DNA from: Thermosipho africanus Ob7
Lineage (GTDB): Bacteria > Thermotogota > Thermotogae > Thermotogales > Fervidobacteriaceae
Direction: 5' to 3'
DNA: 64,000 bases
Assembly: GCF_003351105.1 (NCBI RefSeq)
Contig: NZ_NKRG01000009.1
Location: 1 to 64,000, forward strand
Part shown: one piece after another, positions 2,979 to 34,636 of the stretch
Position numbering within the stretch: position 1 is the first letter of the stretch
Layout of the letters: each line of letters opens with the position of its first letter
Made by a program: the position numbers and the translations under genes
The notes under the pieces: generated by a model
What the model was told of the DNA's origin: nothing
Database searches by the model: none
Seen by the model: the letters and a program-made list of their open reading frames with translations, nothing else

Positions 2979-4076
2979 ATGTTAACACTTTTAAAGAATT
3001 TAAAGGTCTTTACACCATATTATATTGGGAAAAAAGATATTTTAATAGCAAATGGAAAGATAGAATTAATTGAGGAGAATTTAGTAGTACCATTTAGTAA
3101 AGTTTTGGATTTAAATGGAAAGATTGCAGTTCCAGGTTTTATAGATGCTCATGTTCATATTATAGGCGGTGGTGGGGAGGGTGGTTTTCAAACAAGAACA
3201 CCTGAAATTACTATAGAAGAACTTGTTGATTCTGGTATAACAACGGTTATTGGATGTCTTGGTACAGATGATGTTACAAGAAGCATGGAAGATTTATATG
3301 CAAAATCAAAACAACTTGAGGAACTTGGAATAACTAGTTTTATTTATACTGGTTCATATAGTGTGCCAGTAAAGACAATTACTGGAGATATTAAGAAAGA
3401 TTTAGTACTAATAGATAAGGTAATAGGAGTGGGAGAGATAGCAATATCGGATCATAGATCTTCTCAACCTACACTTGAAGAGATTAAAAGAATAGTTGCT
3501 CAAGCTAGAGTTGGAGGCTTAATATCTAATAAGGCAGGTGTTGTAAATTTCCATGTTGGAAATGGAAAAAACGGTATAGATTATTTGTTTGAAATAGCAG
3601 AAAATACAGAAATACCTATTTATCATATGTATCCAACTCATGTAGGAAGGAGCAAAGAGCTGTTTCATAGGGCAATAGAATTTGCAAAGAAAGGTGGATT
3701 TATAGATCTGACAGCTTCTGAAAGTGTAGTGGATTATTTAGAGATTGCAATTAATGAAGGAGTAATTGATAATTTAACTATGACTTCTGATGGGCATGGA
3801 AGTTTACCAAAGTTTGATGAAAATGGCAGGTTAATAAAGCTTGATGTTGCAAGCACAACCGTATTGTTTGAAAGTGTAAAAAAAGCTGTTGAAAGAGATT
3901 TAAATTTTGAAGAGGTTTTAAAAACTATAACGATTAACCCTGCAAAAGTTTTAAAATTAAAGTCTAAAGGTAGAATAGAAAAGGAAACTGATGGAGATAT
4001 CGTTGTTTTGGATAGAAATTTAAACATTGAAAAAGTAATAGCAAGAGGTAAGTTATTGAAGGAGGTGCAGAGTTAA
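2979..4076 (+). CDS. iadA: Beta-aspartyl (isoaspartyl) dipeptidase
   Basis: Zinc amidohydrolase that cleaves beta-aspartyl dipeptides arising from protein damage and turnover. The metal-binding HVH is at residues 58-60, followed by the family-specific GGGGEGG loop (63-69) and [15 protein letters not shown] lies mid-protein and a TSDGHGS stretch with the catalytic Asp is near residue 270. Length 365 is slightly below the roughly 390 of E. coli IadA. The ATG follows GGAGG at 2968-2972. The stop overlaps the start of the downstream Clp gene by one base, suggesting coupling of isopeptide repair with protein quality control, which is sensible in a thermophile. Confidence 0.9.
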
Positions 4077-6283
4077 TGTTTGATATGAATGAATATACGG
4101 AAAATGGGCAAAGAATCCTTATGGCTGTTTCTGATATTTTGACAAGGTACAAACAAAATCAGATGTCATCTGAGCATATTTTACTTTCTATTTTGGAAGA
4201 CGATGAAAATGCAGCAAAGGATATTTTAAAACACTTAAAAGTTGATATTACAGAGCTAAAAAGAGAATTAGAGTCATTTATTTCAAGGTATGGTGTTAAA
4301 ACAAATGCACCAACAGGTCAGATATATATAACCCCAGAGGCACGTCATGTTCTTGAAGAAGCAAAAAAAGAAGCAAAGAGAATGGGAGATGAAAAGATTG
4401 GATCGGATCATTTATTACTTGCTATGACATTGATTCCAGAAAGTATGACTTTTAGAATTTTATCAAGGTATGGAGTAACACAGGATAAAGTTTATCAAGC
4501 AATAAAAGAATTGAGAACATCTGGAGTAACATCAGAGGATGAAAATGTAGATGTTTTAACAAAGTTTACAGAAGACTTAACTGAACTTGCAAGAAAAAAT
4601 AAATTACTTCCAGTTATTGGTAGGGATAATGAAATTTTCAGAGTAATGGAAATATTGGGAAGAAAATTAAAGAACAATCCAGTTATAATAGGTGATCCTG
4701 GGGTTGGTAAAACTGCAATTGTTGAAGGACTTGCGCAAAAAATTGTAGAAGAAAAGGTCCCAGACTTTTTGAAAAATAAAAAGATTTTAAAGCTTGATCT
4801 TGCAAGAGTAATAGCTGGGACAAAGTTTAGAGGGGAATTTGAAGAAAGGCTAAAAAAAATAATTGATGTTGTAAAAAAATCACCTGATGTAATTTTGTTT
4901 ATTGACGAAATCCATACGGTTGTAGGTGCCGGTGCAAGTGAAGGTTCAGTTGATGCAGCAAATATTTTAAAACCTGAGCTTGCAAGAGGAGAACTCAGAT
5001 GTATAGGTGCAACAACTGTTGAAGAATATAGAAGATATATAGAAAAGGATAAAGCACTTGAAAGAAGATTTCAACCTATATACGTAACTGAACCAAGTAT
5101 AGAGGAGACTATAGAGATTTTAAGGGGATTAAAAAAATCATTTGAAGAATTTCACAATGTTAGGATAACTGATAAAGCTATAGAATATGCTGCCAAACTT
5201 GCCGCAAGATATATTACGGAGAGATTCCTGCCTGATAAAGCAGTAGATTTGCTTGATGAATCAGCATCGAGAATAAAAATTTTGGGTAAAAAAGAGGTAA
5301 CTGAAGAAGATATTGCAAAAACTGTAGAAATGTGGACAAAAATACCAGTTGGAAAGATGCTTGAAGGTGAAAAAGAGAAGTTAAAGAATCTAGAGAAAAT
5401 AATACACGAAAAATTTGTAGATCAAGAGGAAGCAGTAAAAGTTGTTTCAAGTGCAATAAGAATGTCGAGAACTGGGATAAGAAACTTAAAAAGACCTGCA
5501 GGCGTATTTTTGTTTTTGGGTCCAACTGGAGTAGGTAAAACTGAACTTGCGAAGAGACTTTCAGAAATATTATTTGGTTCAAGTCAGAGTTTAATTAGAA
5601 TCGACATGAGTGAATATATGGAAAAGCATTCAGTTGCAAGACTTATAGGTGCACCTCCAGGATATGTTGGACATGAACAAGGTGGGCAATTAACAGAAGC
5701 GGTGAGAAGAAGACCGTACAGTGTGATATTATTTGATGAAATTGAGAAGGCAAATCCAGAAGTTTTTAATGTTCTTTTACAGGTGTTTGATGATGGAAGA
5801 CTTACTGATGGAAAAGGTAATACAGTAGATTTTAGAAATACAATAATAATTATGACAAGTAACCTTGCAAGTGAGGAGATTGTTAGAGCAATAGAGCAAA
5901 ATAGAGAGGATGAAATTTCTACAACTGTAGAAAAAATAGTTAAAAACAAACTTAAACCAGAGTTTTTAAACAGACTTGATGCTATAGTAATTTTTAAACC
6001 TTTGAAAAAAGAAGATGTCAAAAAAATTGTGGATATATATTTGGAGGAATTAAATGAAAGGTTAAAAGAAAAGAGTATAAAGGTAATTCTTGAAGAATCT
6101 GTAAAAGACTATTTAGCAGAAGTTGGGTATATTCCTTCAATGGGAGCAAGACCTCTTAGAAGGTTATTTGAAAATACAATTGAATTCACTATTTCAAATC
6201 TCATTATTGATGAAAAATTAAATGAAGGAAATACAATTACATTTAAAAATACTGAAAAAGGTATAACTTATGATATAATATAA
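4076..6283 (+). CDS. Clp-family AAA+ ATPase without middle domain
   Basis: 735-residue two-ring Hsp100 ATPase that unfolds or disaggregates proteins. There is an N-terminal Clp repeat domain (1-145), a first AAA+ domain with GDPGVGKT near residue 205 and IDEIHT, then a direct junction to the second AAA+ domain with GPTGVGKT near 482, and a C-terminal D2-small domain with GARPLRR. The middle coiled-coil domain is absent: only a short linker separates DLLDESA and TKIPVGKM. The loop between MTSN and the LKPEFLNR stretch has ClpB-like length and shows no IGL/IGF/VGF tripeptide, so docking to ClpP is doubtful. It could be labelled ClpA, ClpB or ClpC; I leave the symbol open. A second paralogue lies at 32270. 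Confidence 0.85.
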
Positions 6284-32046: not shown

Positions 32047-32215
32047 TATTCTTTCCCCTTTTAATATATAATATTGATCCTTCCCAATAATTTTTATTTA
32101 CCTTTTAAGTTATAGTTATTTACTCAATTAATATTATATCACAAAAACCATATTTTTCTTGTTGTTACTTTTGTTAACAAAAAATTTACATTAAAATTTT
32201 GAACTCCTCCATATG

Positions 32216-32242
32216 TTATCAGTCTAAATATATGACTGATAA
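32216..32242. promoter_or_regulatory. CIRCE-shaped inverted repeat before the second Clp gene
   Basis: TTATCAGTC, nine bases, GACTGATAA: a perfect 9-N9-9 repeat of 27 bases, the exact geometry of the HrcA operator CIRCE (TTAGCACTC-N9-GAGTGCTAA) with a different core. It lies 28 bases before the ATG, in the expected start region of the transcript, so it likely binds a heat-shock repressor. Confidence 0.7.
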
Positions 32243-32269
32243 AAGAAAAATTTTTCGGAGGTGAGATAT

Positions 32270-34636
32270 ATGAGATATTTAGATGAAAGGATGCAAGAAT
32301 TAGTCCAGCAAGCAGCAGAACGCTTATCTCAAAGAAGGCAGAACCTGTTAAAACCCGAGCATGTACTATATGAAATTCTTCAAGATGAAAACATTCAAAA
32401 AATATTTGAAGCTTTAAATGTACCTACTGAAGAAATCGAAGATAGGTTAGAAGAATTAATTGAAAGCCAATATGGGGTTTACTACGGTTCATCTTCTGGT
32501 GTTTATATGTCAAATGAGCTATCTAGGATTTTTGAACTTTCAAGAAAAGAAGGTAAGTTATTAGGTTCAAGCAAAGTATCACCAGTTCACTTTTTGTTAG
32601 CTGTTCTTAAGGATGCTTCAACTCAATGTGCAGCTATATTATCAAAGTACAATGTAACTTATGATTCGGTTTTAAAAGCGGTTAAAGAGCTAGCAGACTC
32701 TGGAGAAATTGATGGTGAAGGAAATGTATTAGCAAAGTATACCACTGATTTAACAAAGCTTGCAAAAGAAGGTAAACTTTCACCAGTTATTGGAAGGGAA
32801 AAAGAAATTGAAAGGGTAATTGAAATTCTTTCAAGAAAAACAAAGAACAACCCAGTCCTTATTGGAGATCCAGGTGTTGGAAAAACTGCAATTGTTGAAG
32901 GCCTTGCTCAAAGAATTGTTGAAGGTAAAGTTCCTGAGAAGCTGAAGAATAAAAAAATATTAATGCTTGATTTAGGGAAAATGCTTGCAGGAAGCAAGTA
33001 CAGAGGAGAATTTGAAGAGCGTTTAAAGAAAGTAATGGAAGAGATTAAGAAAATGAAAGATAATGTTATTCTTTTCATTGATGAGTTACATACCATTGTT
33101 GGAGCAGGTGCAGCAGAAGGTGCAATGGATGCATCAAATATGCTTAAACCAGCACTTGCAAGAGGAGAACTTCATGCCATAGGTGCAACTACACTTGAAG
33201 AATATAGAAAACACATTGAAAAAGACAAGGCTCTTGCAAGAAGGTTCCAACCAGTACTTGTTGAAGAACCAAGTGTAGAGGAAACTATAGAGATATTAAA
33301 AGGATTGCGCGAAACATATGAAAAACATCATGATATTAAGATAACAGACGATGCTATTGAAGCTGCTGCAAAGCTTTCAGCAAAGTATATCCAGGACAGA
33401 TTTATGCCAGACAAGGCAATAGATTTAATAGATGAGGCAGCTGCAAAAGTAAGTTTGAAAAATAGTGATCCAAAATTGACTGAGTTGAAAGAAAAAATAA
33501 AATCTTTGAGTGAAAAAATAGATGAACTTACGATTAATTCACAGTATAAAGAAGCTGCAGAGATGAAGCAGCAAATGTACAAAATGCAGCAGCAATACGA
33601 AGAACTCGAGAAAAAGTATGGTTCAAGAGAAGTAACACCTGAAACTGTCGCAAAGGTTGTAGAATCTTGGACTGGAATTCCAGCTACAAAGATGATGGAG
33701 TCTGAAAAAGAAAAATTATTAAAATTTGAAGAACTAGTCCATCAGAGAATGGTAGACCAAGAAGAGGCTGTAAAAGTAGTTGCTGATGCAATAAGAAAAG
33801 CAAGAGCTGGTATAAAAGATCCAAATAGACCAATAGGAACATTCTTATTCCTAGGACCAAGTGGTGTTGGCAAAACTGAACTTGCAAAAACAATTGCTGA
33901 ATTACTCTTTGGCTCTGAAAACGCACTCATAAGGATTGATATGAGTGAATACATGGAGAAACACTCAGTTGCAAGACTTATAGGTGCACCTCCAGGATAT
34001 GTTGGTTATGATCAAGGTGGTCAATTAACCGAAGCTGTTAGAAGAAAACCATATAGTGTGATACTCCTTGATGAAGTAGAAAAGGCACATCCTGAGGTAT
34101 TCAATGTACTCTTACAAGTCTTTGATGATGGTAGACTTACTGATGGTAAAGGTAACACAGTTGATTTTAGAAATACAATAATAATCATGACAAGTAACCT
34201 TGCAAGTGATAAGATATTGAGAAAAGTAGAAGCTGGAGTTGATTTTGAAAAGATAGAAGAATCTGTACGTGAAGATTTAAAACACTACTTTAGACCAGAG
34301 TTCATAAATAGAATAGACCATGTAGTGATATTCAAGCCATTGACAAAAGAGCATATGAAAGAAATTGTAGAAAAATTAGTTGCAAGGCTTGAAAATAGAT
34401 TAAAAGAAAAGAATTTAAAGATAAAACTTACAGAGAAAGCAAAAGAATATCTAGCAGAAAAAGGTTACGATCCAGCATTTGGTGCAAGACCACTTAGAAG
34501 GTTAATAGAGAGAGAAATTGAAACACCACTTTCGGTAAAAATAATTGCTGGAGAAATTGCAGAAGGAGATATTGTTCTAGTTGATGAAGAAAATGGAAAA
34601 TTGATTGTAGAAAAAGAAAAAGAATTGACAAAATAG
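32270..34636 (+). CDS. Clp-family AAA+ chaperone, ClpB/ClpC-like with short middle domain
   Basis: 788 residues from ATG 32270 (GGAGGTG at 32257-32263; the in-frame GTG 32261 lies inside that site). N-terminal Clp repeats, D1 with GDPGVGKT near 201, a short coiled middle segment (about 405-450, [15 protein letters not shown]...KKYG), then D2 with GPSGVGKT near 528 and [14 protein letters not shown] at the end. The middle part is ClpC-sized, far shorter than in ClpB, but the region between MTSN and [10 protein letters not shown] is ClpB-like and has no VGF/IGF loop. It is therefore likely a ClpP-independent unfoldase or disaggregase. Control by the upstream inverted repeat suggests heat-shock regulation. 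Confidence 0.87.

Follow-up and report, generated by a model that had tools for sequence, protein, structure and literature searches.

A sequence-diverged CIRCE-type inverted repeat, predicted to be an HrcA operator, upstream of a clpB-type gene

An inverted repeat with the layout of the CIRCE operator, and with arms of another sequence, stands before a Clp-family chaperone gene in the stretch of DNA analyzed here (64 kb, hereafter the window). Is it an operator of HrcA, and if so, what accounts for its sequence? A preliminary description of the locus had left two options: an HrcA with a shifted recognition sequence, or another repressor that copies the layout.

The region 32216-32242 reads exactly TTATCAGTC TAAATATAT GACTGATAA (left arm, spacer, right arm), a 9-bp inverted repeat with a 9-bp spacer, and both this sequence and its CIRCE-like 9-9-9 layout are as first described. 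The pattern is unique within the window, even when up to three mismatches are allowed. The canonical CIRCE/HrcA operator is TTAGCACTC-N9-GAGTGCTAA (Zuber and Schumann 1994, as quoted by PMC4245973; PMC545781). Each arm departs from TTAGCACTC, as had also been noted, by two changes, G to T at position 4 and C to G at position 7. The site lies beyond about two mismatches from TTAGCACTC-N9-GAGTGCTAA: 14 of its 18 arm bases match and four do not, and for this reason we call it a diverged CIRCE variant rather than a canonical CIRCE. The features at the locus are:

32216-32242, + strand: inverted repeat of the CIRCE type and presumed operator of HrcA, with its arms at 32216-32224 and 32234-32242 and its spacer at 32225-32233
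32257-32263, + strand: ribosome-binding site GGAGGTG, read directly and similar in relatives
32270-34636, + strand: clpB-type gene, 788 aa, AAA+ disaggregase family, with a short middle region

The repeat ends 27 bases before the ATG of the clpB-type gene, and GGAGGTG lies in between. The preliminary description had placed the repeat over the probable start of a chaperone gene; the next gene is indeed of the ClpB type, but the position is that of a promoter or leader and not of the start codon. The 788-aa protein has the domains Clp_N, AAA, AAA_lid_9, AAA_2 and ClpB_D2-small, its matches among solved structures are ClpC and ClpB, and NCBIfam ranks ClpB first with 1052 bits, below the cut-off of 1232; we name it ‘ClpB-type’ because its middle region is short (788 aa compared to 853 profile positions). 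A second Clp ATPase gene in the window (735 aa, 4076-6283) directly follows an isoaspartyl-dipeptidase-like gene, and no CIRCE was found before it.

Related sites in the genome and in relatives

Perfect 9-9-9 repeats are not rare in this DNA, which has a G+C content of 30%: the window holds six, compared to a mean of 1.2 in simulated windows. The geometry alone is therefore weak evidence, and the identity of the repeat rests on comparison; perfect palindromy as proof of function was dropped. The relaxed arm TTA[GT]CA[CG]TC is matched at 18/18 positions by 32216-32242, with a maximum of 16/18 in 40 simulated windows, but since this arm was defined after the site was known, the score is not a fair test by itself. 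The fair test of non-randomness is the location of such sites in the whole genome.

The genome searched has a size of 1.93 Mb at 99.9% completeness. The window’s own pattern occurs in it at six places with up to three mismatches. A relaxed pattern, TTANCANTC-N9-GANTGNTAA, was found at five places with at most one mismatch, compared to none for the reversed control, whereas two mismatches brought the search to noise level (12 matches, nine in the control). Of the five best relaxed matches genome-wide, four precede hrcA-grpE-dnaJ, groESL, dnaK and clpB. The three that accompany the clpB site are:

C1:259463: relaxed site before hrcA (hrcA-grpE-dnaJ), TTATCAGAC-N9-GAGTGATAA, two mismatches to the window pattern
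C1:297581: relaxed site before groES (groES-groEL), TTAGCAGTC-N9-GAGTGACAA, three mismatches to the window pattern
C3:149563: relaxed site before dnaK, TTATCACTC-N9-GACTGCTAA, two mismatches to the window pattern

The same type of site thus precedes hrcA, groES and dnaK of one genome, and an exact canonical CIRCE was found nowhere in that genome. The scan before groESL, dnaK and hrcA that the preliminary description had proposed yielded related, non-canonical sites at all three. It had also named a contrary picture, with canonical CIRCE before groES and dnaK and a pattern unconserved in related genomes; groES and dnaK were instead without canonical CIRCE, and relatives have kept the pattern.

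Nine genomes of the source genome’s own family (f1; genera g1, g4 and g5) have a clpB ortholog, as do family f3 and one genome of family f2. The site is conserved before these orthologs: in 9/9 of the f1 genomes it lies at -54 to -61 relative to the start codon and matches the relaxed arm at 18/18 positions, while the clpB sites of f3 and f2 have diverged to 15-18/18 (one f3 locus, L051, was left unscored, as its contig ends early and the start codon could not be placed). Among the clpB upstream regions of f1 the arms are 94-95% identical, the spacer 79%, and the 100 bases upstream 37%.

Conservation of this kind bears directly on whether the repeat is a product of chance that has no function. 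About one perfect 9-9-9 repeat per window is expected anyway, but chance would not keep the arms while the region upstream becomes near-random across relatives, nor would it place relaxed sites before the chaperone operons of the genome, and we regard this explanation as practically negligible. By its genome-wide location and its conservation, the site is clearly non-random.

The half-sites before hrcA, groES, dnaK and clpB form a series that leads from TTAGCACTC through TTAGCAGTC and TTATCACTC to TTATCAGTC, and sister lineages carry the single changes: the groES site reads TTAGCAGTC/TTAGCACTC in f3 and TTAGCACTC/TTATCACTC in f2. Among the 35 sites of genera g1, g4 and g5, left-arm position 7 is G in 25 and right-arm position 4 is T in 27, and none (0/35) is exactly canonical. 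Several f3 genomes have exact canonical CIRCE before hrcA, and it also occurs elsewhere in the phylum; the exact arms of the window site occur in three of 103 phylum genomes, all of the source genome’s genus. The asymmetric form TTAGCACTC-N9-GAGTGATAA is widespread. The site itself, its genome-wide company, its conservation and the chain of intermediates to canonical CIRCE are established directly.

Further variation was seen among the relatives. The form TTAGCACTC-N9-GAGTGATAA, with T at position 4 of one arm, accounts for nearly all hrcA and groES sites of f2, and it stands in flipped orientation before dnaK in f1; unlike in f1, the CIRCE-like matches of dnaK in f3 and one f2 genome are no more than weak and lie 90-190 bases upstream. 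Genera g2 and g3, which form one sister genus group, are missing the clpB ortholog and carry CIRCE before another Clp gene and before hsp20. The Clp gene concerned is the match of the 735-aa paralog, and its CIRCE is canonical or near-canonical (G013:C2:110694, G016:C1:2002538). The hsp20 sites belong to genus g3 (L020 in G016, L164 in G013), and G013 has a second site, TAATCAGTC-N9-GACTGATAA, nearly the sequence of the window, 76 bases from the first hsp20 site.

HrcA, and the alternatives of another repressor or an RNA hairpin

HrcA is encoded in this genome by a single copy, with one gene above the Pfam and TIGR00331 cut-offs, and the protein matches T. maritima HrcA (1STZ) at 5e-72. In all HrcA compared, the winged-helix region shares 59-100% identity with its counterpart in this genome’s HrcA, the helix AT[V/I]RND[M/L] and the wing QPHTSAGR are kept, and no lineage-specific change in the winged helix tracks the change in the operator. 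A shift of specificity through the recognition helix was accordingly rejected. Drift at two tolerated operator positions (4 and 7) appears more likely than a re-tuned HrcA, because no change in HrcA follows the operator change. Of the first option in the preliminary description, the operator half stands, with a set that has drifted at positions 4 and 7 across all four operons, but the DNA-binding domain of HrcA has no matching change.

We consider it very probable, on comparative sequence grounds, that the repeat is a sequence-diverged CIRCE, the predicted operator of the genome’s single HrcA, controlling clpB together with hrcA-grpE-dnaJ, groESL and dnaK. Going by what is known of the HrcA family, from which we infer binding, repression and release by heat, an HrcA dimer would occupy both 9-bp half-sites, which lie over the clpB promoter, and block RNA polymerase; under heat stress HrcA would become inactive, and clpB would be induced together with hrcA-grpE-dnaJ, groESL and dnaK. 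Binding is not to be assumed, because the site carries four mismatches while functional CIRCE sites of Mycoplasma gallisepticum carry at most two (PMC5138195). The g2/g3 group, in which the clpB ortholog is missing and other genes stand behind CIRCE, also counts against the reading.

The second option, another repressor with a recognition sequence of its own that uses the 9-9-9 layout before clpB, would fit the 4/18 bases that differ from canonical CIRCE. It does not fit the presence of the same relaxed sequence before hrcA, groES and dnaK in this genome, nor the mixed arms in relatives, which bridge the window and canonical sequences. CtsR controls clp genes in many Firmicutes, and its operator is a direct heptad repeat, unlike the 9-9-9 inverted repeat of the window. 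No CtsR was found in the genome, by a search whose sensitivity is doubtful because its control was positive only in Lactococcus lactis and missed B. subtilis, which we take to have CtsR. With HrcA present as a single copy and CtsR not found under this weak control, the option of a copied layout gained no support, and we judge a different repressor to be very unlikely.

The repeat could also act as RNA, as a hairpin in the clpB leader that serves as a thermometer or stability element. The window strand does fold better than shuffles (z = -2.6), but 10 of 16 distinct relatives cannot form pairs 4-24 and 7-21, compensatory changes are not in excess of shuffles, and each arm keeps its CIRCE half-site instead; furthermore, the left arm would be untranscribed if the ECF-type promoter proposed below holds. 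The constraint acts on the half-sites, as in a DNA operator, and the RNA hairpin is disfavored, as a most improbable explanation.

A possible ECF-sigma promoter overlapping the operator

A promoter scan of the clpB upstream region found no sigma-70-type promoter, and two further elements are proposed there:

32201-32204, + strand: GAAC, proposed -35 of an ECF-type promoter
32222-32227, + strand: GTCTAA, proposed -10, overlapping the operator at positions 7-9 of the arm and 1-3 of the spacer (ECF -10 comparison from PMC2893595)

On this proposal the site would be an HrcA operator and a promoter core in one, with GAAC-N17-GTCTAA as an ECF-sigma (sigma-E-like) promoter, and clpB would need both ECF sigma activity and the release of HrcA. 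This would refine the diverged-CIRCE explanation and not replace it, and we put it forward tentatively, as possible rather than probable.

GTCTA precedes clpB in ten genomes, the nine of f1 and G039. In all ten, GAAC lies 17-18 bases upstream of it, whereas none of the eight genomes without GTCTA has GAAC there (10/10 versus 0/8). GAAC, at -15/-16 from the site, is the sole 4-mer common (within one base) to the ten GTCTA-bearing clpB upstreams, and 0/2000 random rotations gave a comparable invariant 4-mer with at least two G/C. The two elements thus keep a fixed spacing. Published sigma-E-type elements are similar: GGAACTT and TCAAA in E. coli, and TCTAA as the -10 in the meningococcus (PMC3397946, PMC2893595, PMC12153292). 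The genome encodes an RpoE-like ECF sigma, a candidate for the cognate factor (C12:13726-14355; PF04542 and PF08281). Furthermore, the negative scan for a sigma-70-type promoter sets clpB apart from the other operons, as the family’s sites at dnaK, hrcA and groES, read by eye, sit on or beside sigma-70-like hexamers: dnaK has TTGACA in the operator spacer with TATAAT behind, hrcA has TTGACT...TATACT and groES has TTCACA...TAAACT before the gene.

Against these points, GAAC-N16-18-GTCTA occurs 13 times genome-wide and just two of the 13 matches are intergenic and upstream of a gene, so no ECF regulon is visible; the region just before the ECF sigma gene itself is without such a promoter; and only two lineages are represented among the ten genomes. 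If the proposed -10 does use arm positions 7-9, the promoter would keep the left arm’s C-to-G change. However, the groES left arm also reads CAGTC without any GAAC, which means that other causes can change position 7 as well. That operator and ECF-sigma -10 share bases before clpB in the source branch and one genus of a sister family, with the promoter holding the C-to-G change at position 7 and clpB placed under heat (through HrcA) and a second stress (through the ECF sigma), unlike dnaK, groESL and hrcA, is an idea that we hold to be doubtful, though it may be true.

The only other intergenic match, whose motif ends at 190004 of G000:C3, is followed after 139 bases by a glutaredoxin-like gene and then by thioredoxin reductase; this gene cluster also has a TATAAT-like sequence.

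Comparison with known systems

The proposed promoter resembles ECF sigma-E promoters in the GAAC of its -35, its TCTAA-like -10, a similar spacing and the presence of an RpoE-like sigma in the genome. It differs from known ECF promoters in that the -10 would sit inside an HrcA operator and no regulon is visible genome-wide. If it holds, the locus may be a case of a promoter steering the evolution of an operator.

CIRCE is counted among the most conserved bacterial operators (PMC545781, PMC5138195). The window site shares with the CIRCE/HrcA system the 9-9-9 layout, the arm frame TTA-CA-TC, the company of the hrcA-grpE-dnaJ, groESL and dnaK promoters and the presence of hrcA itself; unlike in canonical CIRCE, position 4 is T and position 7 is G in both of its arms. 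A genome search that allows two mismatches, as in PMC4245973, would miss the clpB site, and the drift across all four operons is such that the dnaK site alone would be found in this way. HrcA and its regulon nevertheless appear intact despite the drift of the operators, and the half-sites offer a natural series for testing which bases of CIRCE are needed by HrcA. The closest parallel for the target gene lies in the Mollicutes, where HrcA controls clpB and CIRCE precedes clpB, dnaK and other chaperone genes (PMC4245973, PMC5138195). The window site is like these in standing before clpB and unlike them in carrying the same two changes in both arms, compared to at most two changes in total there.
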